Of a DNA stretch of 64,000 bases, positions 29,835 to 42,760 are shown piece by piece. Origin of the DNA: Polynucleobacter duraquae (GTDB lineage: Bacteria > Pseudomonadota > Gammaproteobacteria > Burkholderiales > Burkholderiaceae); NCBI RefSeq assembly GCF_000973625.1, contig NZ_CP007501.1, positions 1,962,293 to 2,026,292 on the forward strand, read 5' to 3'. The notes below the pieces were generated by a model. The model had not been told where the DNA came from and did not search any database. It worked only from the letters and a program-made list of their open reading frames with translations. The position numbers were made by a program, and so were the translations under genes. The stretch's first letter is position 1. Every line of letters begins with the position of its first letter.

Positions 29835-29868
29835 GATAAGAAAACCACCCGAAGGTGGTTTTCTTATC
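29835..29868 (-). terminator. Terminator of repeat copy 1
   Basis: Perfect 15-bp stem (arm GATAAGAAAACCACC) with loop CGAA on plus, UUCG on the minus-strand RNA. It follows the lipoprotein gene and the first tRNA fragment. Confidence 0.9.
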
Positions 29869-29871
29869 TCT

Positions 29872-29919
29872 TAGTGGCCCAGTGCGGAATCGACTAAAGG
29901 AACCAAGATGTCAAATCCT
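29872..29919 (-). repeat. tRNA-Phe 3'-end fragment, copy 1 (most diverged)
   Basis: On plus it reads TAGTGGCCCAGTGCGGAATC, three changes from the tRNA-Phe 3' end over these 20 bases, then only loose similarity. It lies just after the stop of the lipoprotein gene at 29926 and 3 bp from the terminator stem. Confidence 0.7.
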
Positions 29920-29925
29920 TATTAA

Positions 29926-30321
29926 TTACATTTTGATGATCTGCCATGCGCCTTCTGAGCGACCATCGCCAATCTTATCGCCAGGCTTGGCATCTTTAGC
30001 ATAGAAATACAATGGCATACCATTGAAGGCTAACTGCTTTTTGCCATCATCACGGGTAATAACTGAATAGCCGCTAGAAACTGCAGGGCTTCCTTCAATC
30101 AATAGAGGCGGCCAGTTCGTTGCGCACATACCATTACAAGCCGACTTACCTGAGCCTGACGCATCCTTGCTGTAAGTATATAGAGTCATATTATTATTAC
30201 CGGCCAATACGCCATCGTTAGCTTTTGTAAATGGTGCTAATGCCACACCAGTCATTGAAGCACAAGCGGCAAGAGTAGCTGTAGCCACTAAGGCTATTAA
30301 TAGACTTTTAATTCGATTCAT
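29926..30321 (-). CDS. COG4315-type lipoprotein, copy A
   Basis: A 131-residue lipoprotein with lipobox LAAC (Cys at about 19) and two repeats of the secreted-repeat family with the Yx(F/W/Y)xxD pattern: LYTYSKDASGSGKSACNGMCATNWPPL and, later, LYFYAKDAKPGDKIGDG. The second half ends in the GAWQIIKM motif usual in this family, whose function is unknown. A near-identical paralogue is at 36354-36749 (about 113 of 131 residues equal by eye), and their upstream sequences are also alike. It occupies the first unit of the island. Confidence 0.9.
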   Translation of the reverse strand: MNRIKSLLIALVATATLAACASMTGVALAPFTKANDGVLAGNNNMTLYTYSKDASGSGKSACNGMCATNWPPLLIEGSPAVSSGYSVITRDDGKKQLAFNGMPLYFYAKDAKPGDKIGDGRSEGAWQIIKM

Positions 30322-30443
30322 GTTTACCCCTTTGTTAGTTGATTTTGTACTTTAACTCTAATTTATGTCTTTTGCTTTACACGAAATTTCTTAATAAGGG
30401 TGCCAACCTAATTAACGGAGTCTCACTCGCCAGCCCAAATGAA

Positions 30444-30465
30444 AAAACCACCCGAAGGTGGTTTT
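30444..30465 (-). terminator. Terminator of repeat copy 2
   Basis: Perfect 9-bp stem AAAACCACC / GGTGGTTTT with the UUCG-type loop, 9 bp from the tRNA fragment and downstream of the patatin gene. Confidence 0.9.
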
Positions 30466-30474
30466 AGTGCTCCC

Positions 30475-30512
30475 TGGTGACTCGGGGCGGAATCAACCAA
30501 AACCAAAGATCC
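30475..30512 (-). repeat. tRNA-Phe 3'-end fragment, copy 2
   Basis: TGGTGACTCGGGGCGGAATC matches the tRNA 3' end with two changes, after which the sequence diverges (accaaagatcc). The patatin stop codon is 5 bp away. Confidence 0.8.
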
Positions 30513-30517
30513 TAATT

Positions 30518-31624
30518 CTATGCCCAGAATTCTTTTATTTTTGGTGCCTCAATTTTTGATCGATCGTAGCCGGTACGCAATGCACCAGCAATTTGTTTTG
30601 GGTCAAGCAAGTCAACACCCTTGGGGGTGCCAGCAACTATCCACTTTACTTTTGTACCGGTCGCCTTAATGTCTTCAATATTTTGAGCAACGGGATGTGG
30701 AATGGTTGTGAGAATTGCTCCCGTCACCCCATCGGTCAAGGTAATGACCAGAGCTCTTTTTGAGCCAGCCACCAAATCCACATGGGCTGGATTTGAGCAA
30801 ATTCCCCCATCCATAACGTAACGTTGGCCCAATAATGTTGGTCCTGCTACCCCTGGCAAGGAGCTGCTTGCTGCTGCACCATGCGCCAAGGGAATGCTAT
30901 TTTTTCTAGCAACTTGTTGCCCTACAACAATGCGCTCACCTGTATAGCAATCAATACCTGTTGTGTACATCCGACTTGTAGACCAATCTTTTTTACTATC
31001 ACCTGTTAATAATGCAACTAGTCTTTCAACGTGATTGCCATTTAATTTATTGTTAGATGCTAAAGCTGCATGGCCGATTATTTTGCGCGTCTCTATGCTT
31101 CCATCGGATGCACTCATATTAATTTGGTCGGCTCTCATCTGACTTGTATTGGGCTTATTTAAAGGCGCAATCTTGGCAAAAATCTCGGGGAACTTCCCAA
31201 AGAAATCAAACTCAGTTCGTAGGCGAGTAAATTCGCCCGAGAGTAGTGATGAGCCCATATAAGATCCAGCAGAGGTGCCCACCACCATTTCAGGAAGTTG
31301 GGCCATGTCTAACCCGGCCTCAATAAGGCCATGAAAGAATCCGCAATACCAGGCAATGTAATATTCTCCGCCGCCGCCGAGTACCATGGTTCGGTCAAGT
31401 CCTTTTGCTAGTTTTGAAACTGTAGGCTTAGTAGCAATAGGAATTGCCAGACCATCATCGGCAAATAATTTATTAGATATTTCATTAGCCTTAATTTGAA
31501 TATTTGACTTTGGGTGCGTTGACTGCGCTTTAGCTGCATCAGCCATGATTCCAGAAGCACCAGTAATGGCTACAGCACCAACAGCGGAAGTTTTTAAAAA
31601 ATTACGGCGTGAAGATTGCGTCAT
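30518..31624 (-). CDS. Patatin-like phospholipase with Tat signal
   Basis: A 368-residue protein. The N terminus SSRRNFLKTSAVGAVAITG is a twin-arginine signal, so it is probably exported folded. The patatin domain has the glycine-rich oxyanion segment GGGGEYYIAWYCGFFHGL (about 83-100), nucleophile Ser118 in GTSAG and Asp272 in the DGG motif (MDGGICSNPAHVDL). Such enzymes are serine lipid acyl hydrolases. A GGAG site precedes the ATG by 5 bp. It is the single gene of its island unit, ending just before the tRNA fragment copy 2. Confidence 0.9.
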   Translation of the reverse strand: MTQSSRRNFLKTSAVGAVAITGASGIMADAAKAQSTHPKSNIQIKANEISNKLFADDGLAIPIATKPTVSKLAKGLDRTMVLGGGGEYYIAWYCGFFHGLIEAGLDMAQLPEMVVGTSAGSYMGSSLLSGEFTRLRTEFDFFGKFPEIFAKIAPLNKPNTSQMRADQINMSASDGSIETRKIIGHAALASNNKLNGNHVERLVALLTGDSKKDWSTSRMYTTGIDCYTGERIVVGQQVARKNSIPLAHGAAASSSLPGVAGPTLLGQRYVMDGGICSNPAHVDLVAGSKRALVITLTDGVTGAILTTIPHPVAQNIEDIKATGTKVKWIVAGTPKGVDLLDPKQIAGALRTGYDRSKIEAPKIKEFWA

Positions 31625-31672
31625 ATCGGCTCCATTGATAGTTAATCAATTTATAGCAGATCTGCAAATGAG

Positions 31673-31694
31673 AAAACCGCCCGAAGGTGGTTTT
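31673..31694 (-). terminator. Terminator of repeat copy 3
   Basis: Stem AAAACCGCC / GGTGGTTTT (one G-T pair) with the UUCG-type loop, 9 bp from the tRNA fragment. Confidence 0.88.
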
Positions 31695-31703
31695 GGTGTT
31701 TCT

Positions 31704-31740
31704 TGGTGGCCAGGGCGGGATCGAACCACTGACATAAGGA
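31704..31740 (-). repeat. tRNA-Phe 3'-end fragment, copy 3 (native subtype)
   Basis: The match runs from the CCA end through the T arm and variable loop toward the anticodon arm (aaccactgacataagga), with a few substitutions. Unlike copies 4-9 it keeps the tRNA-Phe sequence beyond the T loop. The acyltransferase stop is 4 bp away. Confidence 0.85.
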
Positions 31741-31744
31741 GGTC

Positions 31745-32596
31745 TTACTCTATGGGAGCCATCTCTGCTCCAGCTGGTCTTTTGTAGCGGTTGTAAGACC
31801 ACATATATTGATGTGGTCTTGAAAGTATCATCTCTTCAAAATAGTGATTCATTTCTGTACAGGCATCAACTAGACAATCTGGAAACGCTTCTGCCATCAA
31901 TCGGCTCTTAATTAGCCAGCCCTTTCCCAATCCCAGCCTTTCTGCTCCTACAAAAAGAATTGCCACGTTCGCTTGGCGAGCCAACTTAACTGGAAATGAT
32001 GTTGTATACGCATATTGATTAAAAAATTTAGCCCATACCCCATCGCCAACGCTTGGCACCTGATCTGCTAATAGACCCACTACCTCGCCTTTTAATAAAG
32101 CCCTCTTAATTTGACGAACCCCGCCAATATTTGCTTCAACAAACTCAATCTCAGAATGTTTGCGTGATCTAAGCATAAGCTCATTCACCCATCTTTTTCG
32201 GGCCGGCCTATACATTACTGTTGCTCTTGTATGCTCAGCAAAAATACGGGGCACTATTTCAAATCCCCCCAAATGTGGAGCAAGAACAATTAAGCCTTTT
32301 CCATTTTTGGATAGCTCAATAACTTCATTCCAGTTTTCTATGGTTACTTTATTAATGGAGGATTTTGGATGCCTCCAAATCCACAATGTATCCGCAAACA
32401 TCATTCCCGATTCAGCAGCGACCCTCCACGGGGTTAATTGGAATCCAGAATAATGAGCCGCGCTCTGATAATTTTTATATAGGCGTCGTCGGTACCTAGG
32501 AGAAAACAAGTAAACCAATACACCTATACCAGCTCCAATTATTTGAATGGCTGCTAATGGAAGAGAGCTAAAGAGCCTCAATATGAAATATAACAT
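31745..32596 (-). CDS. LpxL/HtrB-type acyltransferase (island copy)
   Basis: A 283-residue acyltransferase of the LpxL family with a hydrophobic N terminus and the HxxxxE motif in LAPHLGGFEIVPR (about residue 109), then YRPARKRWVNELMLRSR and LLADQVPSVGDGVWAKFFNQ. It would add acyl chains to lipid A or a related lipid at the inner membrane. It is distinct from the core homologue at 20.4-21.3 kb, so the island may change envelope lipid acylation. It is the only gene in its unit. Confidence 0.86.
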   Translation of the reverse strand: MLYFILRLFSSLPLAAIQIIGAGIGVLVYLFSPRYRRRLYKNYQSAAHYSGFQLTPWRVAAESGMMFADTLWIWRHPKSSINKVTIENWNEVIELSKNGKGLIVLAPHLGGFEIVPRIFAEHTRATVMYRPARKRWVNELMLRSRKHSEIEFVEANIGGVRQIKRALLKGEVVGLLADQVPSVGDGVWAKFFNQYAYTTSFPVKLARQANVAILFVGAERLGLGKGWLIKSRLMAEAFPDCLVDACTEMNHYFEEMILSRPHQYMWSYNRYKRPAGAEMAPIE

Positions 32597-32622
32597 TTGC
32601 CATTCTAGACGCTATCAAATAA

Positions 32623-32644
32623 AAAACCACCCGAAGGTGGTTTT
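32623..32644 (-). terminator. Terminator of repeat copy 4
   Basis: Perfect 9-bp stem AAAACCACC / GGTGGTTTT, UUCG-type loop, 9 bp from the tRNA fragment. Confidence 0.9.
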
Positions 32645-32653
32645 GGTGATTCT

Positions 32654-32697
32654 TGGTGGCTCGGGGCGGAATCGACCAGGGCCGAGGATATGAATCC
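32654..32697 (-). repeat. tRNA-Phe 3'-end fragment, copy 4 (GGGCCGAGGAT subtype)
   Basis: The 3' acceptor strand and T arm of tRNA-Phe (TGGTGGCTCGGGGCGG on plus) are followed by CCAGGGCCGAGGAT-ATGA-ATCC. On the minus strand GGAT and ATCC can pair as a small stem. The lipoprotein stop lies 15 bp away. Confidence 0.88.
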
Positions 32698-32712
32698 CTT
32701 AAGAGTATGAGT

Positions 32713-33033
32713 CTATCTATAACCCAGAACATCGTCCTGAGTTCTTTTTTGACCCTCTAAGAATCTTTTACTACATATTCCCGAACCACTTTGATTTGCG
32801 AGCTTTTTTGCGTCTACCTGCATTTGATACATTGTTTCAAAACAATCTCTTCTATTCACAAACTCAAATGCTTTTGTATGGGTTTGCTTGCCCTTATGAA
32901 AATAGAAAAAATCTAAGGTCCAGTACTTATCGCCTGTAATGCTAACGCTCATAGGCGCTGAGTCTAGTGGCGGAGGTTGACTCGCACAAGAAATCAAAAA
33001 CACCACAATGCAAAGAATAGAAAACTTGTTCAC
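32713..33033 (-). CDS. Small lipoprotein of unknown function
   Basis: A 106-residue protein with a lipoprotein signal (MNKFSILCIVVFLISCASQ, Cys at about 16). The mature part has two cysteines (about 64 and 87) and a WTLDFFYFHKGKQTHTKAFEF beta-rich stretch. I recognise no family. It is the single gene of island unit 4 and is flanked by tRNA-derived repeats on both sides. Expected location: outer or inner membrane, periplasmic face. Confidence 0.65.
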   Translation of the reverse strand: MNKFSILCIVVFLISCASQPPPLDSAPMSVSITGDKYWTLDFFYFHKGKQTHTKAFEFVNRRDCFETMYQMQVDAKKLANQSGSGICSKRFLEGQKRTQDDVLGYR

Positions 33034-33114
33034 GTTTGGCTTACTGTCTATAAATCCTTAATTTCCAAATATTCTATACTTTTTTACAATTAAATTCCTG
33101 ACAGCCCAAATGAA

Positions 33115-33136
33115 AAAACCACCCGAAGATGGTTTT
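33115..33136 (-). terminator. Terminator of repeat copy 5
   Basis: Same stem as copies 2 and 4 with one mismatch (GATGGTTTT in the right arm), 9 bp from the tRNA fragment. The mismatch suggests weakening. Confidence 0.8.
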
Positions 33137-33145
33137 GGTGTTTCT

Positions 33146-33190
33146 TGGTGGCCCGGGGCGGAATCGACCAGGGCTGAGGATGGCTTATCC
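33146..33190 (-). repeat. tRNA-Phe 3'-end fragment, copy 5 (GGGCCGAGGAT subtype)
   Basis: TGGTGGCCCGGGGCGGAATC is identical to the tRNA 3' end; then ACCAGGGCTGAGGAT-GGCTT-ATCC. The hydrolase stop codon is 6 bp away. Confidence 0.9.
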
Positions 33191-33196
33191 GCTCGT

Positions 33197-33931
33197 CTAA
33201 TTTGCCAAAATAAATTTAGCGGCAGCACTTACCATTTGATCTTCTACCTTATTGAACCCATGGTATGCCAATCCCATACATGGCAAGCCTACGTCTTCTC
33301 CCCCATCAATCATGACTAATTCTGATTTAGTTTCTTTACTTCGCCCCTTAATAATTGATTCTGATGCGCTTATTGGTGTAGCGGCACACGCTTCTTTTTT
33401 ATGGTGGATTGCCATTACCGGCTTACTAAAGTTATTGCCTAAAGTTTCCCCAATATGTGTCCCGGCAATGATGATCCCAGCTACTGCTCCAGACTTCTCA
33501 TTCTGATTGGCAAATTGAACTGCTGTTACCGTTCCCATGCTGTGTCCAAAAATCCAGACGGGTACATTGAATTTATTTCTGTAATATTTAACGACACTTT
33601 CAACTCGTGCTAGGTGTTCAGATTTGCCGCGTACATTCCCGCGCCTTGCGTCACCCAAATCATAGGGCGAATCCACCAATACTGAATTAATTCCATACTG
33701 CTGCCATAATCCTGCCGAACGATTTAGCGGATTTTGCTTGGTGGTTGACCCGTCAGACTTTAAATCTAATACCCCATCGCCACCAATGAATAGAAGAACA
33801 ACTGCTTTTGGCTTGGCAGTCTCAATTAGAAATGTTTTTGTAGGTGTCTCACCAGTCTGTGGAACCTCTAGCAACTGTCCATAGACAAAAGCCGGCATAA
33901 AAAGTGATATCAGACAAATGATTATTTTCAT
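33197..33931 (-). CDS. Secreted alpha/beta hydrolase
   Basis: A 244-residue protein from the ATG at 33931, chosen because a GGAGA ribosome site lies 8 bp upstream and overlaps the earlier ATG at 33946. A signal peptide (MKIIICLISLFMPAFVYG) precedes an alpha/beta hydrolase core with the nucleophile elbow GHSMGTVTA (about residue 133) and a final AYHGFNK His region. It resembles periplasmic dienelactone-hydrolase-like or esterase proteins; no substrate is evident. A TGTCGTTTTAAACGACA palindrome lies 43 bp upstream, over the likely -35 region (a TAATAT -10 is at 33956-33961). Confidence 0.8.
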   Translation of the reverse strand: MKIIICLISLFMPAFVYGQLLEVPQTGETPTKTFLIETAKPKAVVLLFIGGDGVLDLKSDGSTTKQNPLNRSAGLWQQYGINSVLVDSPYDLGDARRGNVRGKSEHLARVESVVKYYRNKFNVPVWIFGHSMGTVTAVQFANQNEKSGAVAGIIIAGTHIGETLGNNFSKPVMAIHHKKEACAATPISASESIIKGRSKETKSELVMIDGGEDVGLPCMGLAYHGFNKVEDQMVSAAAKFILAN

Positions 33932-33974
33932 CGAGGGCGTCTCCATTGGCTCTAAATATTAGCATCATCTACGT

Positions 33975-33991
33975 TGTCGTTTTAAACGACA
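33975..33991. promoter_or_regulatory. Island palindrome P1, copy a
   Basis: TGTCGTTTTAAACGACA, two 8-base arms around one T. It lies upstream of the hydrolase gene and would cover the -35 side of its promoter. Confidence 0.6.
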
Positions 33992-34030
33992 CCGACTGGC
34001 ACATGGATGAACAATCCCTTCAAACAAAAC

Positions 34031-34047
34031 TGTCCTTTTAAAGGACA
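34031..34047. promoter_or_regulatory. Island palindrome P2, copy a
   Basis: TGTCCTTTTAAAGGACA, the same design as P1 with G and C exchanged in both arms; 39 bp from P1. Confidence 0.55.
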
Positions 34048-34107
34048 GTTCATGATGGGGATGTCCGAGACTTATTGCGCCTAAGCCTGTGAGGCCCTGA
34101 AAAGAAA

Positions 34108-34128
34108 ATAGCCCAACAAGTGGGCTAT
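34108..34128 (-). terminator. Terminator of repeat copy 6 (tRNA-Phe type)
   Basis: Stem ATAGCCCA / TGGGCTAT with loop ACAAG, the same hairpin that follows the intact tRNA-Phe gene, 9 bp from the tRNA fragment. Confidence 0.85.
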
Positions 34129-34137
34129 CGTGTTTCT

Positions 34138-34182
34138 TGGTGGCCCGGGGCGGAATCGAACCAGGGCCGAGGATGCGCATCC
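34138..34182 (-). repeat. tRNA-Phe 3'-end fragment, copy 6 (GGGCCGAGGAT subtype)
   Basis: Identical to tRNA-Phe from the CCA end through the T loop (to AATCGAACCA on plus), then GGGCCGAGGAT-GCGC-ATCC. The permease stop is 3 bp beyond. Confidence 0.92.
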
Positions 34183-34185
34183 GAC

Positions 34186-35142
34186 CTAGTAAGTAAGTCC
34201 AGCTACATAGGTATAAAGAGGAATTCCCAAGATGATGTTGAAAGGGAAAGTAATGCCTAATGACATCCCCATATATAGGGCAGGATTTACTTCGGGAAGT
34301 GCGTGCCTTAATACGGCCGGCACAGCAATGTAAGAAGCGCTGGCAGCAAGCACCATCAATAAAACAGTATCACCTAGAGGTAGGCCTAGCAACTTACACA
34401 GCCCCAATGCGATAGAGGCGTGAACTAATGGGGCTCCAATTGCGTAAAACAAAGTAATTGGGGGTTTACCTTTTAATCCCTCAAAGTTCTTAGCAGCCAT
34501 TAAGCCCATATCCAGCAGGAAAAAGGCAAGCATACCCTTGAACAAATCAATAGAAAATGGGGCCATTATTTTTTGTCCATCATCACCGCTTACCAGGCCA
34601 ACTAACATCGAGCCCAACAAAAGAAGCTGTGCGCCATCAGTAAATGATTCATGAAGAATCTTTGATATTCCTGTGGACTGCTTTGAATTGGTAGCTGATG
34701 CTCTTGCTTTATTCGCCAATAAGATTGCCAGAATAATTGCTGGGGACTCCATCAAAGCCATCGCGGCCGCCATATGACCCCCAAAAGCAATACCATATTG
34801 GTCAAGCGCTTGTGTTGCGGTGATGAAAGTAACGGCGCTAACAGAGCCATAAGTTGCGGCAACGGCGGCGGCATCGTAGTTATTCAGCTTGGTTCTTAAA
34901 ACCAAATATCCAATGAAAGGAATAATGATTGCGAGAAATACTGCCAATCCAAGCGCCAAACCAATTTCAAGAGTAAATCCTGATTTATGAAGCGCAAAGC
35001 CTCCCTTCAACCCCAAAGCCATCAACAGATATAAAGATAAAAATCTAGCTATGGGCTGAGGAATTTCTAGATTAGATTTCACCGCGCCAGCAAAGGCACC
35101 AAAAACAAAGAATAGAATTGCTGGATCCAAGAAATTGCTCAT
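34186..35142 (-). CDS. sbtA: SbtA-type sodium-dependent bicarbonate permease
   Basis: A 318-residue integral membrane protein with about ten segments, matching the sodium-dependent bicarbonate transport (SbtA) family. It starts FLDPAILFFVFGAFAGAVKSNLEIP and has ARFLSLYLLMALGLKGGF, a second inverted half with LLDMGLMAA, and APLVHASIALGLCKLLGLP followed by LAASASYIAVPAVLRHALPEVNP. SbtA imports bicarbonate using the sodium gradient; in cyanobacteria it belongs to the carbon-concentrating mechanism and is gated by SbtB, which is absent here. In a heterotroph it could feed carboxylases. It is the single gene of its island unit. Confidence 0.9.
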   Translation of the reverse strand: MSNFLDPAILFFVFGAFAGAVKSNLEIPQPIARFLSLYLLMALGLKGGFALHKSGFTLEIGLALGLAVFLAIIIPFIGYLVLRTKLNNYDAAAVAATYGSVSAVTFITATQALDQYGIAFGGHMAAAMALMESPAIILAILLANKARASATNSKQSTGISKILHESFTDGAQLLLLGSMLVGLVSGDDGQKIMAPFSIDLFKGMLAFFLLDMGLMAAKNFEGLKGKPPITLFYAIGAPLVHASIALGLCKLLGLPLGDTVLLMVLAASASYIAVPAVLRHALPEVNPALYMGMSLGITFPFNIILGIPLYTYVAGLTY

Positions 35143-35207
35143 ATAAACATCTTAGTTATTTTCTAAGACTTTTGTATTGGCCCCATAGAACCTGAGGACT
35201 AAATGAA

Positions 35208-35229
35208 AAAACCACCCGAAGGTGGTTTT
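35208..35229 (-). terminator. Terminator of repeat copy 7
   Basis: Perfect 9-bp stem AAAACCACC / GGTGGTTTT with UUCG-type loop, 9 bp from the tRNA fragment. Confidence 0.9.
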
Positions 35230-35238
35230 GGTATTTCT

Positions 35239-35284
35239 TGGTGGCCCGGGGCGGAATCGAACCAGGGCCGAGGTTGCCTTATCC
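35239..35284 (-). repeat. tRNA-Phe 3'-end fragment, copy 7 (GGGCCGAGGAT subtype)
   Basis: Identical to tRNA-Phe from the CCA end through the T loop, then GGGCCGAGGTT-GCCTT-ATCC. Here the adjoining gene is on the plus strand, so the fragment lies upstream of its start and not after a stop. Confidence 0.9.
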
Positions 35285-35315
35285 TATACTGGGTAATATC
35301 GGCTAAGCTCCTAGA

Positions 35316-36110: not shown

Positions 36111-36147
36111 GGTTTCTATACATACGTATATACGCATATATTTGTAA

Positions 36148-36749: not shown

Positions 36750-36797
36750 GTTTACCCCTTTGTTTGTTGAGTAACTACTTTAACTCTATTTTATGTC

Positions 36798-36814: not shown

Positions 36815-36839
36815 TTACACTTTCGCCACATAAATGAAA

Positions 36840-36859
36840 AAACCACCCGCAGGTGGTTT
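36840..36859 (-). terminator. Terminator of repeat copy 9
   Basis: 8-bp stem AAACCACC / GGTGGTTT with loop CGCA, 10 bp from the tRNA fragment. Confidence 0.87.
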
Positions 36860-36869
36860 AGGTGTTTCT

Positions 36870-36913
36870 TGGTGGCCCGGGGCGGAATTGACCAGGGCCG
36901 AGGATATCAATCC
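36870..36913 (-). repeat. tRNA-Phe 3'-end fragment, copy 9 (GGGCCGAGGAT subtype)
   Basis: TGGTGGCCCGGGGCGGAATT, one change, then GACCAGGGCCGAGGAT-ATCA-ATCC. The cupredoxin stop codon is only 2 bp away. Confidence 0.9.
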
Positions 36914-36915
36914 GC

Positions 36916-37770
36916 CTAGTGCTTTTTTGCCACTACATTGATGACGCCCTTCATTCCAGCTTCATAGTGCCCGGGCTCAAAGCATGCCATGGCATATTGC
37001 CCGGGCTTTTTAAAAGTCCAAACCAATTCCGATTGTTGTCCTGGTTTTGCAGCGATTTCATTCGTATGATGATGCCCCTTAGCTCCAGGACTTGCCATCT
37101 CTTTAGCGTGAGTAATGATTTCTTTTTCAGTTCCAATTACCAGCTCATGGTCTAACTTGCCCTTATTAACCAAAATAATGCGAATGGGCTCACCCGCTTG
37201 TGCTTCCCATATTGCTGGGGAAAAACGCATCGTGTCATCAACCTCAATACGAACTTCTTTCATTGCTTGGGTAATCACTGGTGCTGGTGTTCCATGTCCA
37301 TGACTGTGGCCATGGCCGTCCCCACCATGCTCATTAAAGTAGGAAAGGGAATATAAAGATGCGGCAATAACAAGGGCTAGGCTAATGCCCCCATAAATCA
37401 GTACTGCCTTAACTTTTATTTTGCCCTTGCCTTCCATTAGATACATGGCCAACAAAGACATGGCAAATCCGACAGGCACGACCCATGAGCTTCTACCGGG
37501 GGAGTCTGGGAAATGCTGGAGCCCTCCAGTAAAGAAACCCAAACCGATTGAGGCAACAATACCAATGGCCAGAACATCGGTCCAGCTGTGATCTTTATCA
37601 GGGTTGGCAATTTTTTCTAATGTGCCCCCAACGAGATAAATCACGACTCCGAATACGGCAGTCAAGAATGCTCGTTCTTCACTGAAAAATCCATGGGTAA
37701 TGGCGCCAGCAGTAAAGCTAATTCCCGTATATTTACAAAGAGAGGCGATGTGGCTGAGTGGAAAGTTCAT
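36916..37770 (-). CDS. Membrane-anchored cupredoxin-domain protein
   Basis: A 284-residue two-part protein. The first 150 residues carry about four membrane segments (for example GFAMSLLAMYLMEG and AVLIYGGISLALVIAASLYSL). A His-rich linker (GDGHGHSHGHG) then leads to a cupredoxin domain of about 115 residues, with copper ligands fitting His in KLDHELVIG and Cys, His and Met in ACFEPGHYEAGM. A blue-copper electron carrier or periplasmic copper-binding protein tethered to the inner membrane is likely. The join of a four-helix domain to plastocyanin-like beta sheet is unusual. It is the single gene of its island unit. Confidence 0.83.
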   Translation of the reverse strand: MNFPLSHIASLCKYTGISFTAGAITHGFFSEERAFLTAVFGVVIYLVGGTLEKIANPDKDHSWTDVLAIGIVASIGLGFFTGGLQHFPDSPGRSSWVVPVGFAMSLLAMYLMEGKGKIKVKAVLIYGGISLALVIAASLYSLSYFNEHGGDGHGHSHGHGTPAPVITQAMKEVRIEVDDTMRFSPAIWEAQAGEPIRIILVNKGKLDHELVIGTEKEIITHAKEMASPGAKGHHHTNEIAAKPGQQSELVWTFKKPGQYAMACFEPGHYEAGMKGVINVVAKKH

Positions 37771-37828
37771 GGGCGTATCTTAAGAGAAATTAACGAATCT
37801 TGCCTAAAACACCATTACCCATAAATAA

Positions 37829-37850
37829 AAAACCACCCGAAGGTGGTTTT
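37829..37850 (-). terminator. Terminator of repeat copy 10
   Basis: Perfect 9-bp stem AAAACCACC / GGTGGTTTT with UUCG-type loop, 9 bp from the tRNA fragment. Confidence 0.9.
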
Positions 37851-37855
37851 AGTGT

Positions 37856-37904
37856 TTCTTGGTGGCCCGGGGCGGAATCGAACCACCGACACAAGGATTT
37901 TCAA
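37856..37904 (-). repeat. Left 49-bp direct repeat (attachment-type site), tRNA-Phe fragment copy 10
   Basis: 49 bases identical to 42681-42729, that is, the 3' 45 bases of tRNA-Phe from the CCA end to the anticodon loop plus four flanking bases. Identity stops inside the anticodon loop, a common crossover place for tyrosine integrases. Confidence 0.92.
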
Positions 37905-38127
37905 ATATCCTCCGATAGACCGCTTTCGCTTTGATTTCAAGGGCTTGGGTCACCAGTCTTGACTTGTCTAAAAATTGTGCGTCCTTGTGCCGGTCAAATT
38001 TAGCAATGAAATCAGAATCTTGCGAGGGGCAATTTTTCTGTGTGTACAGATTGTGTTGCCATACCCTTCCAGTAAATAGCCATAGCGTATTGAAATGTCG
38101 TTTAAAACGACATCTCTGGAAGAGTCT
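37905..38127. other. Gene-free stretch with a possible coding remnant and palindrome P1 copy d
   Basis: No start-bearing gene is supported. On the minus strand one frame is open from about 38131 through the tRNA fragment to a TAA at about 37847, reading for example FNTLWLFTGRVWQHN and later DFIAKFDRHKDAQFLDKSR. This could be the tail of a lost protein gene. P1 copy d (TGTCGTTTAAAACGACA) is at 38096-38112. Confidence 0.45.
38096..38112. promoter_or_regulatory. Island palindrome P1, copy d
   Basis: TGTCGTTTAAAACGACA, the reverse complement form of copies a, b and e. It lies 15 bp after the HD-GYP stop codon. Confidence 0.55.
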
Positions 38128-39174
38128 TTAAATTAGCGGTGGAAATGTATATCCATCAACTTTAAATACTTTTAAGCAAGCATTTACGACGTCAGCATCA
38201 AATAGCTTGTCACTGCCCATAGCGATCTCTTCTAATGCGGCATCTATACCCTTACCTTTTCGGTAAGGGCGATCTGATGACATTGCCTCTACAGTATCAG
38301 CCACACCTAGAATTCGGGCCTCTTCACAGACTATATCGCCTTTAATTGCGTTGGGGTAGCCACTGCCATCCAAACGCTCATGATGCTGAAGAACTGCTTG
38401 AGCAATATTCCAAGGAAAGTGAATATGTTTGAGCATGTCGTAACCGGCTTGAACATGGTTTCTTAACATGGCAACTTCGAAGTTGCTTAAGGCAATAGGC
38501 TTCGTTAGAATTTCTGCGGGAATTGTAATTTTGCCAATGTCGTGAACTAAAGCGGCCATTCGAATACCTTCAATAGTATGTAAAGGTAAATTCATTTCGG
38601 CAGCAATTGCTACAGCTAGATTTGCTACACGCTTTTGATGTCCTCCAGTATAGGGGTCTCGAGCAACAATGACGTTGGCAAGAGTATCGACCATTTCATT
38701 CATAGAAATATTGACGGAGTGTTGATACTCAAGCAATTCTTTTTCTAGTTTTTTTCTATCTGAAATGTCGCGAATATTACATTGAATAACGCGATCACCG
38801 TTAACACCATAAGCATTGCTGACAAACTCTACATTAACAATCTTCTCATCTTTTCTTTTTAATGGAAGGTCTTCGTATCGTATGTAGCCTTTGTCTTTAA
38901 GCACAGTAAAGGCTGTTAAAGCCGCGGCTTTATCTACCATCGCGCCAATTTCCCAAAGCTCTTTACCGATGAGCTCTTCTCTTGTAAACCCAAGTAAATT
39001 AGTGATGAATGGATTGGCGTCTTGAATGACTCCTGTTTGAAAATCAAGGATCAAGATGCCATCTTGAGCTGTCTCAAATAATCGCCTGTAGCGTAGCTCT
39101 GATTGTTTAGCTAACTGCTCTTTGCTTAATTCATCTGCCATATGATTTTTTGTGAGTTCTTTGAAGACTCTCAC
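38128..39174 (-). CDS. PAS / HD-GYP domain cyclic-di-GMP phosphodiesterase
   Basis: A 348-residue cytoplasmic protein: a PAS domain (about 25-140, with [15 protein letters not shown] and a PAC tail [15 protein letters not shown]) followed by an HD-GYP domain. The metal site HD is at 211-212 ([11 protein letters not shown]) and the [11 protein letters not shown] signature at 264-274. HD-GYP enzymes hydrolyse cyclic-di-GMP. A GGDEF cyclase gene is divergent 101 bp away, so the pair probably sets c-di-GMP for the neighbouring PgaC-like synthase. Confidence 0.93.
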
Positions 39175-39275
39175 CCTTTATTTGAGTGTATACCCATTAT
39201 TTCTTACATCTATAGACTTTCTTTAAATTTTTAGTTGTAATCTATCTAATCTAATCATGAAATTTAAGGCACGCT

Positions 39276-40127
39276 TTGTATATAGCAATTGGCCTTTACT
39301 GCTTATCACTACTCTGCCAGGTCTTTGCCTCGCTTATTAGCCTTTCATTATTTCGACATTCAGCAACCATATATCGCTGGGGCTGGTTATTTTTAGCTAT
39401 CGGCCTTAGTTTAATGATCGGCCGAAGGATTGGTCCGATATTCCACGTCTTTGAATCTGGCCGCTTCGACTTATTGGACGCGATACTATCGCTACCAATT
39501 TCAGGATTCTTATTACTCGGCGTTCTTGGTCTAAGAAAATTGCTTCTCAAGGCTGACAACAATCAACTGATGCTCGAGACTCTTGCTCAGCACGACCCCC
39601 TCACTAATAGTTTAAGTCGTACCGAAATACTCTATCGAATCTCGGAAGAAATTGATCGATCACGGAGAAATAAGCATACTTTTGCTTTATTAGAGATGGA
39701 CATTGACCACTTTAAAAATGTAAATGATCAATATGGGCATCATGTTGGCGATGAAGTCCTATTAAACCTAGTTCGGCACTCTCAAGAAGCAATTCGCTCC
39801 ATCGATACAGTTGGTCGAATAAGTGGAGAAGAATTTCTGATTCTATTGCCAGAAACAGGAGCCGATGGAGCCGCTCAAATTGCTGAGCGTTTGCGTGAAC
39901 ACATTGCTAATACAACAAATGAAACGAGTGCTCTAACGCCAATAAGAATCACCATTAGCATTGGAATTGCCATTTTTAATCCCGACGACAATCCTCGAAT
40001 GTCGCGTAGCATCGCACTCAATGAACTCATAAGTAAGGCTGACTTAGCAATGTATCAAGCAAAGAATGAAGGGCGCAATCGTGTTTCCTTTTGGAGTGCC
40101 TCTACCCCACCTTTAAAAATGGCATGA
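39276..40127 (+). CDS. Membrane GGDEF diguanylate cyclase
   Basis: A 283-residue protein with three membrane segments in the first 95 residues and a GGDEF domain. The active-site motif is SGEEF at about 183-187 (RISGEEFLILLPETG), a functional variant, and MDIDHFKNVNDQYGHHVGDEVL precedes it. It makes cyclic-di-GMP from GTP at the inner membrane. No RxxD inhibitory site is apparent just before the motif. The gene converges on the barrel-protein gene with 2 bp between stops. Confidence 0.92.
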   Translation: MYIAIGLYCLSLLCQVFASLISLSLFRHSATIYRWGWLFLAIGLSLMIGRRIGPIFHVFESGRFDLLDAILSLPISGFLLLGVLGLRKLLLKADNNQLMLETLAQHDPLTNSLSRTEILYRISEEIDRSRRNKHTFALLEMDIDHFKNVNDQYGHHVGDEVLLNLVRHSQEAIRSIDTVGRISGEEFLILLPETGADGAAQIAERLREHIANTTNETSALTPIRITISIGIAIFNPDDNPRMSRSIALNELISKADLAMYQAKNEGRNRVSFWSASTPPLKMA

Positions 40128-40129
40128 TG

Positions 40130-41074
40130 TTAAAACGGAATGATGAGCTCTTCCATAATGTAGCGATAAAAGTAATTAGGGCCTAAAAAACCAGCCGATT
40201 TTCCATATCCTGCTCGAGTCTTAAAATAATAATCATTTGATGCTACTGGGCTAGTAGCCGCGAACTCATAGAGCTGTGTAGTAGTGCTTGGATCCTGATT
40301 CACCGTTTGCCGCCCAACACCTGCTGTGCCGCTGAGCACCCATCCCGCAATTCTTTTTCTTGCGCCAAACGCAATCATCGTCTCGTTATAGGTTGATGGA
40401 TTAAAGTAATTATTGGCAACATTGGTATTGGTGTCTCTATATTGGCGATAACGCAGTTGTGCCGTTAACCCATAGTCTGGCACCAGGTCATAAATGAGTT
40501 TTGCTCTCACTATTGGCCGGGTATTGGTATCCGAGAAATACATATTTGCGCCCATCACTATCGCAGTTAAGCGCTTCATAAGCTGTTGCTCAATGCTGAT
40601 ACCGCCAAGGGTGTAATAGATTCCATTATTTAAAGAATTTTGTGTCTCCACCCTATCTCGATTTACTATGACTTCAGCCTTTGTAGAGTCCGTTACTCGA
40701 AATCCATAATTACTGTCCGTGGTCACTAATTGATGACCATTTTGAGTGTTGTAGCCAATATTGAGGTTGTAACCCAGAGCTGTTCGCGGATTAATGGCTT
40801 TAGTCATCAGCGTATATTGCTCGCCTGTAGAGTTCCAGCCACCCTGCGTAAAGTAATTGTGCTGATAAGTAATGCCTGTATATTTTTCACCATGTTCATA
40901 CAAAGGTAGATATCCTGCTTTGTATTTGTAGGTGGAGAATCCTTCGCTATCAGAGCCAAAATAGACATTCGGCACTGAAATCGCCTGTTTTGTTTGCTCC
41001 TCTTCTGCTCCATTGGCATGAAAAGTGAATAACAATATGCCGAAAAACAGATAGGCCTGAACTACTCTTCTCAT
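40130..41074 (-). CDS. Putative outer-membrane beta-barrel protein of polysaccharide export (PgaA-like C-terminal part)
   Basis: A 314-residue protein with a signal peptide (YLFFGILLFTFHANGAEE) and alternating aromatic/polar strands typical of outer-membrane barrels, ending in a strand with terminal Phe (YIMEELIIPF), the usual BamA-recognised end. The start overlaps the PgaC-like gene by 4 bp. In poly-N-acetylglucosamine systems an outer-membrane barrel (PgaA) exports the polymer made by PgaC; this protein is the size of the barrel alone and lacks a TPR part. Assignment to PgaA is inference from the partner. Confidence 0.7.
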   Translation of the reverse strand: MRRVVQAYLFFGILLFTFHANGAEEEQTKQAISVPNVYFGSDSEGFSTYKYKAGYLPLYEHGEKYTGITYQHNYFTQGGWNSTGEQYTLMTKAINPRTALGYNLNIGYNTQNGHQLVTTDSNYGFRVTDSTKAEVIVNRDRVETQNSLNNGIYYTLGGISIEQQLMKRLTAIVMGANMYFSDTNTRPIVRAKLIYDLVPDYGLTAQLRYRQYRDTNTNVANNYFNPSTYNETMIAFGARKRIAGWVLSGTAGVGRQTVNQDPSTTTQLYEFAATSPVASNDYYFKTRAGYGKSAGFLGPNYFYRYIMEELIIPF

Positions 41075-42372
41075 TTAGTGCCCCATGATTTGCGAAGATT
41101 AAATAGCTCAGAAAAATATCCATACACACAGGCAGGCTGGAGAATAAATCCGTAAGCAAATACATAGGACAAGAATCCCAAGATATTTGCCCGAACTGTT
41201 AAATGCTCAGCATTGAACATCGCCTTGCCTTTTAAATACATTTGCCAATTGAGCAAAAAAGCCATTGGCAATAGTGATAGCGTCATGGGGCCTGCTATCC
41301 AAAATATACCAAAGCAAGCTAGGATCAGTCCTGGTATGAATCCAAAGGTAAAGGCAATGTCCATCAATGGAAACATCGTATTCCACCAAATATAAAAAGT
41401 GGAGTACCGGGGTTTAAACAGGATCATCGGATTATCTTTAAATGCCTCAACTAAGCCGCGAGACCAACGTCTTCTTTGATTAACAAATTTTTTTAATGTG
41501 TCAGGGCAGTCGGTAAATGCCAAGGCATCTTCGGCATGACCAACTCTATGACCTGCCGCCAAAATTCTCCAAGTCAGCACGATATCTTCACCGACCATCT
41601 CTGGCCACCCACCCAGCTCCACTACTGTCTTGCGGTCATACAGAGAGAATGCGCCTTGTGCCACCAAAGTGCCTTGAAATAAAGACTGAATGCGCTTAAT
41701 GGTGGCAATTCCTAAAAAGTAATCCCACTCCTGCGCCTTGGTGATCCAGTTCTCTCGTGAATTTCGAATGAGAATTTCACCAGCAACTGCTTTGGTATTG
41801 ATTGGATCAGAGAGATATCGTCCCACTAAATGGCGTACCCCGTCTTTCAATATATAGCTATCAGCATCAATTGAAATAATGATGTCAGTCGTACATTTTG
41901 CTAAGCCATGGTTTAGAGCTGATGCCTTACCGCCGTTACGCCCTAAATCAATGAGCTCTAGATTTGAATGGGCCGACTGTAAAGCCCTAACAGAATCAAC
42001 CGTCTTATCGCTCGAGCCATCATTAATCACAATGATGCGAATATCTGCTGGGTAGTCCTGTAGAAAAATTCCTGACAGGGTTGAGGCTATTGAATTCTCT
42101 TCGTTATAGGCGGCGATTAATATTGTGACTGGTGGGTAGTGTTGATCAACAATGACTTTAGGGCGACGATCGAGTAGTAGCGCCATCGCCACAAAGGCAT
42201 TCATAAAGCCTGGAATGATGGCAATAAAGGTAATGATGAAATAGGCAGGAACTGTTCCTACTTCATTGCTTAGATCTGAAAACCAAGGCTGGGAATACCA
42301 AAAAGAAAACCCCATCCAACTCAAGGAAAATAGCAGTGAAACAATAAATTTTCCTTTTACTGAAAAATACAA
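41071..42372 (-). CDS. PgaC/IcaA-like family 2 glycosyltransferase
   Basis: A 433-residue processive GT2 with membrane segments at both ends. Catalytic motifs in order are YNEENSI, DGSSDKT, the DADSY metal site, EDIVLTWRI and QRRRWSRG, which corresponds to the QxxRW motif. This set matches PgaC/IcaA and hyaluronan-synthase-like enzymes that polymerise UDP-GlcNAc at the inner membrane. The start is TTG at 42372 with a TATAAA -10 at 42389-42394. Overlap with the barrel gene and nearby c-di-GMP genes point to a c-di-GMP-controlled exopolysaccharide. PgaB and PgaD are not seen, so polymer and modification are open. Confidence 0.88.
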   Translation of the reverse strand: MYFSVKGKFIVSLLFSLSWMGFSFWYSQPWFSDLSNEVGTVPAYFIITFIAIIPGFMNAFVAMALLLDRRPKVIVDQHYPPVTILIAAYNEENSIASTLSGIFLQDYPADIRIIVINDGSSDKTVDSVRALQSAHSNLELIDLGRNGGKASALNHGLAKCTTDIIISIDADSYILKDGVRHLVGRYLSDPINTKAVAGEILIRNSRENWITKAQEWDYFLGIATIKRIQSLFQGTLVAQGAFSLYDRKTVVELGGWPEMVGEDIVLTWRILAAGHRVGHAEDALAFTDCPDTLKKFVNQRRRWSRGLVEAFKDNPMILFKPRYSTFYIWWNTMFPLMDIAFTFGFIPGLILACFGIFWIAGPMTLSLLPMAFLLNWQMYLKGKAMFNAEHLTVRANILGFLSYVFAYGFILQPACVYGYFSELFNLRKSWGTK

Positions 42373-42426
42373 AGGATTCCATCCAAAATTTATACTTATT
42401 CAGAATACTCCTTGGCGGGCTTGTTT

Positions 42427-42443
42427 TGTCGTTTTAAACGACA
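42427..42443. promoter_or_regulatory. Island palindrome P1, copy e
   Basis: TGTCGTTTTAAACGACA, 54 bp upstream of the GT2 start. Confidence 0.6.
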
Positions 42444-42506
42444 TTCCGAGTACATACCCTTAGCGTCGCTTAAATGAACGCTTGACTGACGCAGGGATGA
42501 ATAATT

Positions 42507-42531
42507 GACGTGTCCTTTAAAAGGACACGTC
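42507..42531. promoter_or_regulatory. Island palindrome P2, copy e (extended)
   Basis: A 25-base palindrome with 12-base arms (GACGTGTCCTTT and its complement) around one A; its centre is TGTCCTTTAAAAGGACA. Confidence 0.6.
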
Positions 42532-42652
42532 ATGAACCTGACGCCCCAGTCTAGAGTCAGAGTGAGAGTATCCTGATTGACGGATTAAATCTATGGGATT
42601 TGAATAAACACGCTAGGCGCTAGGTCTAACCACCATTGAGGGCCTCTAATAA

Positions 42653-42677
42653 AAATAGCCCAACAAGTGGGCTATTT
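42653..42677 (-). terminator. Terminator of tRNA-Phe
   Basis: 10-bp stem AAATAGCCCA / TGGGCTATTT with loop ACAAG, 7 bp after the tRNA 3' end, ending in a U tract on the minus strand. Confidence 0.9.
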
Positions 42678-42684
42678 AGATTCT

Positions 42685-42760
42685 TGGTGGCCCGGGGCGG
42701 AATCGAACCACCGACACAAGGATTTTCAATCCTCTGCTCTACCGACTGAGCTACCAGGCC
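42685..42760 (-). tRNA. tRNA-Phe (anticodon GAA)
   Basis: A complete 76-nt tRNA on the minus strand with encoded CCA. The acceptor stem GGCCTGG pairs with CCGGGCC (one T-G pair). The D arm contains AGCTCAGTCGGTAGAGC, the anticodon loop TTGAAAA has GAA at positions 34-36, and the T arm is GGTGG-TTCGATT-CCGCC. It is the only full tRNA seen in the window and the source of the ten partial copies to its left. A TATAAT -10 lies just upstream (42771-42776). Confidence 0.97.

Follow-up and report, generated by a model that had tools for sequence, protein, structure and literature searches.

The gene array beside tRNA-Phe in Polynucleobacter duraquae is best explained, with a probability of roughly 0.6 judged from sequence, as an integron-like row of cassettes that would use tRNA-Phe as its landing site and be moved by a recombinase acting in trans. 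It lies in a 64,000-nucleotide stretch of contig NZ_CP007501.1, hereafter the window. Across the genus, the cassettes recur as discrete units, change partners within a core of ~25 bp, and end in a dedicated dyad-symmetric site, and the sites decay with distance from the tRNA; cassettes are often more alike between species than the core genome flanking them, and those ending in the type B site described below carry no detected recombinase.

Layout of the array and structure of its sites

The window holds ten fragments of the tRNA-Phe 3' end, all on the minus strand and with genes in between (Table 1), and they lie downstream of an intact tRNA-Phe gene, as in tRNA islands of the Islander type. 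A hairpin-plus-T terminator stands 3' of each fragment, of the ACCACC type in eight (some with one base changed) and of the AGCCCAC type (T1) in two; scan and reading thus confirm the layout described in an earlier sequence-only reading. Our ungapped site scan recovered nine of the ten fragments, and the one at 31.7 kb, which has a deletion, was read by eye. The link to tRNA-Phe, as opposed to random dispersal, holds for the main array, which adjoins that gene, but not for small ectopic groups: the same genome has site groups at 588 kb (2 copies) and 1188 kb (3 copies) with no adjoining tRNA-Phe.

Table 1. Features of the array, in order from tRNA-Phe (positions in the window)
Feature	Position	Strand	Evidence
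tRNA-Phe(GAA), array head and presumed landing site	42685..42760	-	ARAGORN
AGCCCAC-type (T1) terminator directly 3' of tRNA-Phe	42654..42673	-	sequence
4.8-kb unit ending in type A site: glycosyltransferase, porin-like, GGDEF, HD-GYP genes	37905..42684	-	by eye
Type A site, tRNA-Phe anticodon loop to 3' end	37858..37904	-	scan + sequence
Cassette: terminator 37847-37830, cupredoxin-domain gene 37770-36916, left arm	36892..37857	-
Type B site core	36868..36891	-	scan + sequence
Cassette: terminator 36857-36840, Lipoprotein_15 gene 36749-36354	36321..36867	-
Type B site core, arm stem changed but still complementary (CAGG..CCTG)	36297..36320	-
Cassette: T1 terminator 36287-36268, leader with two palindromes, gene 35316-36110	35262..36296	-
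Type B site core	35237..35261	-	scan + sequence
Cassette: terminator 35226-35209, Na+-dependent bicarbonate transporter (Sbt_1) gene 35142-34186	34161..35236	-
Type B site core	34136..34160	-	scan + sequence
Cassette: T1 terminator 34126-34107, palindrome leader, alpha/beta-hydrolase gene 33946-33197	33168..34135	-
Type B site core	33144..33167	-	scan + sequence
Cassette: terminator 33133-33116, 106-aa lipoprotein-like gene 33033-32713 (by eye; no Pfam match)	32676..33143	-
Type B site core	32652..32675	-	scan + sequence
Cassette: terminator 32641-32624, lipid A acyltransferase-like gene 32596-31745	31743..32651	-
Decayed type A-like site with deletion	31702..31742	-	sequence
Cassette: terminator 31691-31674, patatin-like gene 31624-30518	30497..31701	-
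Decayed type B site core, 4 mismatches	30473..30496	-	scan + sequence
Cassette: terminator 30462-30445, second Lipoprotein_15 gene 30321-29926	29894..30472	-
Decayed site, array end, 3 mismatches, left arm hardly recognisable	29870..29893	-
Last terminator	29842..29859	-	sequence

Two types of site can be distinguished. Type A is a tRNA-Phe fragment broken in the anticodon loop; in the window only the 37.88- and 31.72-kb fragments, in which tRNA identity reaches the anticodon arm, are of this type. Type B is a site of ~50 bp in which an arm absent from the tRNA (AGGATnnnnnATCCTCGGCCCTGG) is followed by the T-loop-to-CCA part of tRNA-Phe. In six type B sites of the window (36.89, 36.32, 35.26, 34.16, 33.17, and 32.68 kb), a clear arm foreign to the tRNA, with the sequence ATCCTCGGCCCTGG or one close to it, stands ahead of 24 to 25 bp of tRNA identity; the arm is decayed at the 30.50- and 29.89-kb fragments and still visible in a relative of the latter in genome G016 (locus L032, position 17778). 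Most of the fragments are a dedicated, recombination-site-like sequence and not plain tRNA remnants, and the earlier view of them as simple displaced tRNA ends needs changing for most.

When the right arm of the site is reverse-complemented, 5.85 of 8 positions agree with the left arm, compared with 1.78 in nearby DNA and 4 of 8 (counted by hand) in the tRNA itself. At a second dyad upstream, Watson-Crick compensation was 0.595 (null, 0.518 ± 0.010), a value reached in none of 500 shuffles and, with one sequence per family, in none of 1,000; this analysis found no G-T excess, which suggests that the second dyad is a feature of DNA. A dedicated site with two dyads, one of them compensated, may parallel the conserved structure and variable sequence of the integron attC site.

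Recurrence of cassettes and the position of exchange

In a search of 186 Polynucleobacter genomes, the core was present in 0 to 13 copies per genome, with two or more in 146, and the reversed core pattern had no match. Some members of the genus, such as G001, lack an array, and G050 has one core match only; no arrays were seen outside Polynucleobacter in the family comparison. The site scan found 259 sites in 43 loci and none in the same sequences reversed, and 183 type B and 43 type A sites were assigned in the 43 loci of 34 genomes (reversed sequence, 0). From the 34 genomes read, we analyzed 216 units (180 B-ended and 36 A-ended). B-ended units have a median length of 1,060 bp, with 120 of 180 shorter than 1.5 kb, which bears out the description of mostly single-gene units with terminators. 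Recurrent units form 29 clusters covering 157 of the 216, and equal-length cassettes (516, 579, 645, 680, 831, 948, and 1,330 bp) are found between differing neighbours; A-ended units without a recombinase also recur at one size (2,713 to 2,715 bp in four genomes). BrnT toxin is the commonest protein family in the cassettes, and 33 of the 156 longest genes are oriented against the array. Gene content differs between species, as had been anticipated, and the units are clearly not fixed and identical across the genus.

Several cassettes of the window take part in this recurrence. The 4.8-kb unit next to the tRNA clusters by DNA with the unit after tRNA-Phe in G011 (4,786 bp); the cassette at 35262..36296, whose gene is on the plus strand, against the array, is also present in G016 at 98.1% identity; and a 283-aa family very similar to the lipid A acyltransferase-like protein (by eye) occurs in 7 genomes of the sample. 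The second Lipoprotein_15 gene shares 84% identity with its counterpart at 36.5 kb, and a HAD-family gene (29780-29085) lies beyond the last terminator.

Site decay rises with distance from tRNA-Phe (tau, 0.39; null standard deviation, 0.084; maximum of 0.27 in 2,000 shuffles), a trend that is weaker with sites of at most three mismatches (0.34, reached in at least 1 of 2,000 shuffles). Together with the recurrent units, this trend supports the proposed serial insertion beside tRNA-Phe; it also corresponds to the integron arrangement of a fixed end site with the newest cassettes nearest, the site here being a tRNA and not attI. Cassettes were more alike than the flanking core in 39 of 51 pairs (at the extreme, 97.4% versus 71.8%) and were not in 12, the core comparison being available for 51 of 187 cassette pairs and lacking for 136.

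The class of the terminator is concordant with the cassette downstream of it (0.60; null, 0.27 ± 0.06; 0 of 500 shuffles) and shows no clear linkage to the cassette upstream (0.34, reached in 29 of 500 shuffles). Each unit of the window does have a terminator, as had been stated, but it belongs to the downstream and not the upstream gene. The left arm is linked to the cassette upstream of it, and linkage switches sides between -1 and +23 of the core; because the terminator tracks the downstream gene and the left arm the upstream one, exchange falls within ~25 bp. This bound is no tighter because variants inside the core are mostly private: a finer placement (+1 to +6) was lost on family-averaging, and a one-T indel at the arm/core border is not clearly linked to the cassette on either side (25 and 29 of 500 shuffles).

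On the cassette-array explanation, a cassette would comprise the right half of a site, its own terminator, a leader, a gene or small group of genes, and a left arm. Recombination of its site with tRNA-Phe or an array site would insert it precisely and push the old 3' end downstream, and the tRNA would stay whole because the exchanged part is identical to its 3' end. A site-specific recombinase would carry out the exchange, most likely a T-loop-targeting tyrosine recombinase, which a transient phage or island may supply in trans, with circular cassettes as putative intermediates. The genome sequences, which are static, showed no circular form and no excision. tRNA-Phe would thus take the role of attI and the type B site that of attC, or the array would work like a row of miniature cis-mobilizable elements (CIMEs).

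A different and rather unlikely account treats the sites as leftovers of past integrase events and attributes present shuffling to RecA-dependent homologous recombination, e.g., after natural transformation, between repeats of site plus terminator. Sites with like terminators offer ~50 to 60 bp of near-identity, homology alone also predicts exchange inside the common core, where finer mapping failed, some genomes with arrays yielded no dedicated recombinase, and two contigs of G024 have nearly the same cassette end followed by different neighbours. However, homologous recombination needs no common left arm, and non-homologous cassettes nevertheless keep the non-tRNA arm with its two dyads, one compensated; polarity from the tRNA is also natural for landing-site insertion and less so for exchange between any two repeats.

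Search for a recombinase

As the sequence-only reading had noted, no integrase is found in the units of the window. A tyrosine recombinase was detected in none of the 180 B-ended units and in 5 of the 36 A-ended ones, namely, the five largest (8.4 to 11.8 kb), four of which encode a pair of ~420 to 460 and ~190 to 230 aa; the recombinase-bearing array units end in A sites, not B. Since no recombinase was detected in the other 31 A-ended units, the two site types do not split cleanly into islands and cassettes. Among 87 proteins encoded by the 24 largest B-ended units, the 25 commonest Pfam families include no recombinase or transposase, with 65 rarer families standing outside this set. In a PF00589 search of 19 genomes, G003, which has a fresh array, has only two matches, of two kinds present in all 19 genomes that we read as XerC/XerD-like, and G000 has three, none in its array; neither array has an integron integrase gene (intI) beside it. 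PF00239 (DsiB/Ccr, large serine type) matched in 11 of 32 genomes, with no match in G003, G010, G019, and other array-bearing genomes. Viral contigs contained no exact B site, and one IMG/VR contig of 13 kb, whose genes look inovirus-like by eye, carries an attP of type A together with a 335-aa integrase. No recombinase is tied to the type B site so far.

That inovirus-like contig and the five large recombinase-bearing units are what might be expected if ordinary tRNA-integrating islands had inserted serially and later lost their integrases and most cargo. We consider this improbable, as B-ended units are small across the sample and have no detected recombinase, the 25 commonest families in the largest of them include no recombinase or transposase, the same cassettes recur intact at unchanged length, and some recombinase-less A-ended units also recur at one size.

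It is very improbable that the hairpin-forming site is acted on, as single-stranded DNA, by an HUH (Y1) transposase of the RAYT/IS200 kind. PF01797 is matched in 180 of 186 genomes, usually by one gene of ~230 to 240 aa, it is matched only in two pieces in G050, with its single core match, and the upstream dyad behaves as a DNA feature; yet across the family, Polynucleobacter among its genera, 84 of 100 genomes and 18 of 25 genera have the gene, whereas arrays were seen in Polynucleobacter only, and array-less members such as G001 have it as well. Least credible is a repeated transcription terminator or RNA element spread by copying with no mobility role, which would fit the terminator 3' of every window site but is disfavoured by the recurrence of whole genes with sites, by terminator families that vary between sites and travel with the downstream gene, and by the lack of a G-T excess in the dyad.

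Related systems and significance

The nearest precedents are the ssrA islands of Dehalococcoides, CIMEs, and additive genomic islands, and the layout is less unprecedented than the sequence-only reading had supposed, as two of these share serial 3'-end repeats. According to the sections of PMC3146451 used here, which also mention CIMEs and accretion of ICEs and IMEs at tRNA genes, the Dehalococcoides islands are serial behind a stable-RNA gene and each closed by a 20-bp 3'-end repeat, T-loop insertion is inferred, and next to the repeat lies a conserved motif without a match in the RNA gene; 16 of 31 have a 6-gene module including DsiB, a relative of the SCCmec Ccr recombinases, and 15 lack the integration module. 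Serial units, RNA-gene 3' repeats, a non-RNA motif beside them, and units without an integration module are thus common to both systems as far as those sections go. Unlike those islands, the B-ended Polynucleobacter units have no detected recombinase (0 of 180) and mostly measure ~1 kb; their terminators move together with the genes, and the 34 genomes have many of the same cassettes in common. The parts of PMC10872708 used here describe an additive flexible genomic island at tRNA-Lys of "Ca. Methylopumilus" with serial 3'-end repeats, with no description there of a dedicated site, cassette recurrence, or exchange mapping, as well as tycheposons, tRNA-linked cargo elements of plankton genomes with a tyrosine recombinase. 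Tycheposons resemble the present units as tRNA-linked cargo in plankton genomes and differ in their size (4 to 200 kb) and in having their own recombinase. Islander-type islands likewise have the integrase inside, which here applies to 5 of 36 A-ended and none of 180 B-ended units.

CIMEs are att-flanked segments without a recombinase that are mobilized by a relative's integrase; those known derive from a single ICE family and have its attL and attR. The Polynucleobacter segments are similarly bounded by sites and mostly without their own recombinase; unlike CIMEs, they place many unrelated single genes under one site, and we found no helper element that has it. Integrons consist of mobile gene cassettes with attI and attC sites, the integrase intI, and promoterless cassettes read from a common promoter. 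Both systems have a row of mostly single-gene cassettes with sites in one orientation, a fixed landing site at one end, toxin-antitoxin cassettes, and between-species exchange, and a structured and sequence-variable site at the cassette 3' end may be a further common feature. The cassette system is nonetheless not a member of the integron family: no intI was found, the landing site is a tRNA gene, the site resembles tRNA-Phe and not attC, and about a fifth of the longest genes run against the array. Polynucleobacter cassettes carry their own terminator and presumably their own promoter, and a terminator at the start of each window cassette argues against promoterless cassettes read from a common promoter.

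We tentatively raise the prospect, somewhat short of even odds, that this is a second, independently evolved integron-like system, with a genus-wide pool of single-gene cassettes, a dyad-structured site that derives from tRNA-Phe and has evolved for this purpose, and the tRNA-Phe gene, or a decayed copy elsewhere, as attI; with the recombinase not encoded by the cassettes, platform, cassettes, and enzyme would be fully uncoupled. Polynucleobacter have small genomes and are abundant in fresh water, and a pool of cassettes marked by a recognisable site would account for the movement of single genes between their species, including a bicarbonate transporter, a lipid A acyltransferase, and toxin-antitoxin pairs. 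The site lets this pool be searched for in any metagenome, and, if the explanation is true, an integron integrase is not needed for integron-like gene capture to arise.

Two kinds of site in the tRNA-Phe array

We read the tRNA-Phe array of Polynucleobacter duraquae as a series of discrete mobile cassettes (probability about 0.9). The window is the final 64 kb of the single-contig, 2.03-Mb genome of this species (G000), and the sequence-only reading had described in it ten copies of the tRNA-Phe 3' end downstream of the gene and on the same strand, with a hairpin terminator after every copy and single genes or small gene groups in the intervals; this layout is borne out on reading of the sequence. 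Pfam matches identify the cassette products as a cupredoxin, two Lipoprotein_15 proteins, Sbt_1, an alpha/beta hydrolase, a lipid A acyltransferase, and a patatin, and two further cassette genes have no Pfam match. The DNA of the two Lipoprotein_15 cassettes is 84% identical over 463 bp, and this duplicate is one of two same-genome repeats that qualified for the cassette comparison.

Positions of array features and related loci
Feature	Sequence	Position	Strand	Remark
tRNA-Phe	Window	42760..42685	minus	Head of array
Lipoprotein_15 gene	Window	36354-36749
Lipoprotein_15 gene	Window	29926-30321
Palindromes GTCCTTTTAAAGGAC/GTCGTTTTAAACGAC	Window	33.98-34.05, 36.15-36.21, 38.10, 42.43-42.53 kb
Palindromes GTCCTTTTAAAGGAC/GTCGTTTTAAACGAC	G000	699169-699229		L099 9170-9230
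Ectopic group at 1188 kb of G000	L014	about 8285-9468
Ectopic group at 588 kb of G000	L015	8188-9153
Degenerate tRNA-Phe copy	L024 (G008)	about 4945-5023
Degenerate tRNA-Phe copy	L044 (G070)	offset 3660-3742	reverse
Y1/HUH (RAYT-like) protein	L132	1465-2169
Y1/HUH protein matches	G050:C1	719181-719828		Two pieces
Viral contig	L056 (IMG/VR)	1-13065

A scan for the 24-bp tRNA core, ungapped and therefore missing sites with indels, recovered 259 sites in 43 loci from 34 genomes (33 intact tRNA genes, 43 type A sites, and 183 type B sites) and no core sites in the same 43 loci reversed. Type A sites extend upstream into the anticodon loop (TTGAAAATCCTTGTGTCGGTGG) before departing from the tRNA, and type B sites carry AGGATnnnnnATCCTCGGCCCTGG left of the core, an arm distinct from the tRNA-Phe sequence whose last 14 positions are 52 to 95% conserved in register among 222 B sites. 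This left arm matches the reverse complement of the right arm at 5.85 of 8 positions, compared with 1.78 for nearby DNA and 4 of 8 for the tRNA itself. The core dyad varies too little for a compensation test (124 of 500 shuffles), but a second dyad of the B site, AGGAT/ATCCT, is maintained by paired substitutions: 59.5% of its cells are Watson-Crick pairs, compared with 51.8 ± 1.0% when the 3' letters are redealt (0 of 500 shuffles), and when each upstream family contributes a single site (n = 149) the values are 57.9% and 52.0 ± 1.2% (0 of 1,000), in shuffles that leave some relatedness among sites in place. G-T pairs in the second dyad fall below expectation, and the lack of a G-T excess speaks against RNA structure as its cause and points to a feature of DNA rather than RNA.

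Cassette content, exchange, and transfer

The sites delimit 216 units, named by the site that closes them, of which 180 are B-ended (median, 1,060 bp; 120 below 1.5 kb) and 36 are A-ended (median, 3.4 kb). These unit counts and the cluster counts below are biased toward array-rich genomes, since the 34 genomes were chosen from the first listed together with array-rich ones. In the 156 B-ended units shorter than 2.5 kb, the longest open reading frame (median, 189 amino acids) runs along the array in 123 and opposite to it in 33, and those in the array direction stop at a median of 29 bp before the core, a few bases ahead of the left arm. Twenty-nine clusters of recurrent DNA take in 157 of the 216 units, a figure that somewhat overstates gene identity because the clustering also merges units with only a leader in common; by protein, 35 families hold 104 of the 156 units and 52 are singletons. 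The commonest family is the BrnT toxin (10 units in 10 genomes), which in the 1188-kb copy of G000 adjoins a BrnA-like antitoxin gene; other families include the Phd/YefM antitoxin, CBS, FMN reductase, and several DUF families. Cassettes of equal length were found repeatedly with different neighbors.

The exchange point was approached through 222 B sites, which gave 309 pairs with only left neighbors homologous and 619 with only right neighbors homologous. Variants of the left arm track the upstream cassette and variants from +23 onward track the downstream cassette; most variants of the intervening core are private. Concordance of terminator class was 60% (family mean) among pairs homologous on the right (null, 27 ± 6%; 0 of 500 shuffles) and 34% among pairs homologous on the left (29 of 500 shuffles). 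With the terminator following the downstream cassette and the left arm the upstream one, a cassette comprises its terminator, the leader, the gene, and the left arm, and the change of partners falls within about 25 bp, the interval to which the exchange position is bounded. A narrower exchange in the T-loop (+1 to +6), hinted at by a cruder pairwise-identity profile, was lost on family averaging. Two contigs of one assembly (L111 and L112 of G024) share a near-identical cassette end and a site core and then continue into different terminators; they are one cassette in two neighborhoods. The palindromes GTCCTTTTAAAGGAC and GTCGTTTTAAACGAC are the mark of a leader common to cassettes with the AGCCCAC-type (T1) terminator. 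They occur at nine places in G000: seven follow tRNA-Phe within the array region, and one pair sits between tRNA-Ser(TGA) and a histidine kinase-like gene similar by eye to one carried on a cassette (L055+4128).

In our best reading, small cassettes would insert at tRNA-Phe and at sites already within the array, recombination would take place within the stretch of the tRNA that covers T-loop and acceptor, and the tRNA would stay intact after insertion. Core mismatches increase away from tRNA-Phe (243 concordant versus 106 discordant pairs in 29 tRNA-Phe-headed arrays; null standard deviation, 0.084), with a weaker distance trend (0.34, equaled at least once in 2,000 shuffles) for sites of at most 3 mismatches in 27 arrays. 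For 51 of 187 intergenome cassette pairs the flanks upstream of tRNA-Phe could be compared, and the cassette was more similar than the flank in 39 of these (medians, 87.3 versus 78.8%; extreme pair, 97.4 versus 71.8%).

Candidates for the mobilizing enzyme

We lean toward a dedicated site-specific recombinase acting in trans as the agent that moves the cassettes; that they are instead moved by homologous recombination seems to us unlikely. A tyrosine recombinase profile made from six sequences, which distant enzymes may escape, matched none of the 180 B-ended units. It matched 5 of the 36 A-ended units, the five largest at 8.4 to 11.8 kb (L021, L047, L048, L053, and L054), four of which encode a pair of enzymes of ∼420 to 460 and ∼190 to 230 amino acids. 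Large A-ended islands with such pairs are seen in L047, L048, L053, L054, and L101, and similar pairs occur elsewhere in genome G001. Six more recombinase loci with the left end out of view likewise lead to an A site (L024, L028, L037, L083, L088, and L101), further ones sit upstream of tRNA-Phe, and L072, with its right end out of view, shows a weak match after a B site. The other 31 A-ended units have no detected recombinase and some are of one size (2,713 to 2,715 bp in four genomes); therefore, recombinase-free cassettes may end in A sites as well.

None of the enzymes considered could be tied to the type B site. In P. alcilacus (G003), whose array has exact cores, the PF00589 proteins number just two; they are read as XerD and XerC, both kinds occur in every one of the 19 genomes searched, and these 19 have no accessory tyrosine recombinase in common. 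The short recombinases (∼190 to 230 amino acids) lie within arrays in A-ended units and are also found in G001, which has a single core match. A Y1 (HUH/RAYT) protein is present in 180 of 186 Polynucleobacter genomes, yet also in 18 of 25 genera of the family; in L132 it lies behind a penicillin-binding protein-like gene, and in G050, a genome with a single core match, it matches in two pieces. Only 11 of 32 genomes have a serine recombinase, and the exact B pattern occurred in none of the viral contigs. One 13-kb viral contig (L056), with genes that by eye are inovirus-like and a 335-amino-acid integrase, has a 51-bp terminal repeat identical to the 3' half of tRNA-Phe; it carries a tRNA-Phe attP of type A and shows one route to type A sites. 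A relative precedes the type A site of P. cosmopolitanus (L028 and L087).

Distribution and relation to known systems

The sequence-only reading had called for copies to be counted across many Polynucleobacter genomes, and their number does vary: the core pattern is present in 172 of 186, with one match in 26 (presumably tRNA-Phe alone), at least two in 146, and at least three in 111. Among 337 genomes of other genera in the family, 289 have one match, 16 none, 26 two, and 6 three or four; these six belong to one genus, and in three of them (G259, G434, and G438) the matches are scattered, except for two in G259 that lie 16 kb apart. The exact B-site pattern was found at 41 loci in the genome collection, 26 titled Polynucleobacter and 8 in beta-proteobacterial, Burkholderiales, Burkholderiaceae, or Alcaligenaceae bins without a genus. 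Five are coding coincidences (L060, L061, L077, L078, and L085), and two, on contigs binned as Thermoflexus and Rhodobacteraceae (L062 and L069), are real cassette sites that are perhaps misbinned Polynucleobacter DNA. Barring these coincidences and probable misbinnings, the loci are all Polynucleobacter or unnamed beta-proteobacterial bins and give no clear case for B sites outside the genus.

Cassettes also occur away from tRNA-Phe. G000 has ectopic groups at 1188 and 588 kb, each with a type A site first and B-ended cassettes after it, and a cassette at 588 kb, its gene SodC-like by eye, is 96.3% identical over 673 bp to a cassette in the tRNA-Phe array of G016. Degenerate full-length tRNA-Phe copies head ectopic groups in G008 and G070. 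In the former (L024) the 5' half has decayed and the last 49 bases equal the real tRNA, and in the latter (L044) there are 4 differences in that part, which is what retention of the 3' half for recombination would look like. In a shuffle test the score of L024 did not exceed all shuffles (27.0 versus 28.0); the same place read as L071 scored 27.0 versus 23.5.

We found no published account of the tRNA-Phe cassette array in a search that did not extend to Hoetzinger 2017 on Polynucleobacter islands, which may cover parts of it, and Polynucleobacter is unmentioned in the available portion of an account of tRNA gene fragments (PMC9897764). The array resembles integrons in behavior but falls outside them because the integron integrase is missing. 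The nearest published case in the literature compared is that of the Dehalococcoides ssrA islands, for which the available text reports T-loop insertion with 20-bp repeats and a conserved motif alongside, an integration module missing in 15 of 31, and a suggested parallel to CIMEs and accretion (PMC3146451). The Methylopumilus tRNA-Lys island, as described in the part of its report available, indicates that the broad layout exists beyond Polynucleobacter (PMC10872708). Compared with what these partial accounts describe of both islands, the Polynucleobacter array additionally has cassettes of about one gene, a separate dyad-bearing site, terminators that travel linked to genes, and a genus-wide reshuffling of the same cassettes.
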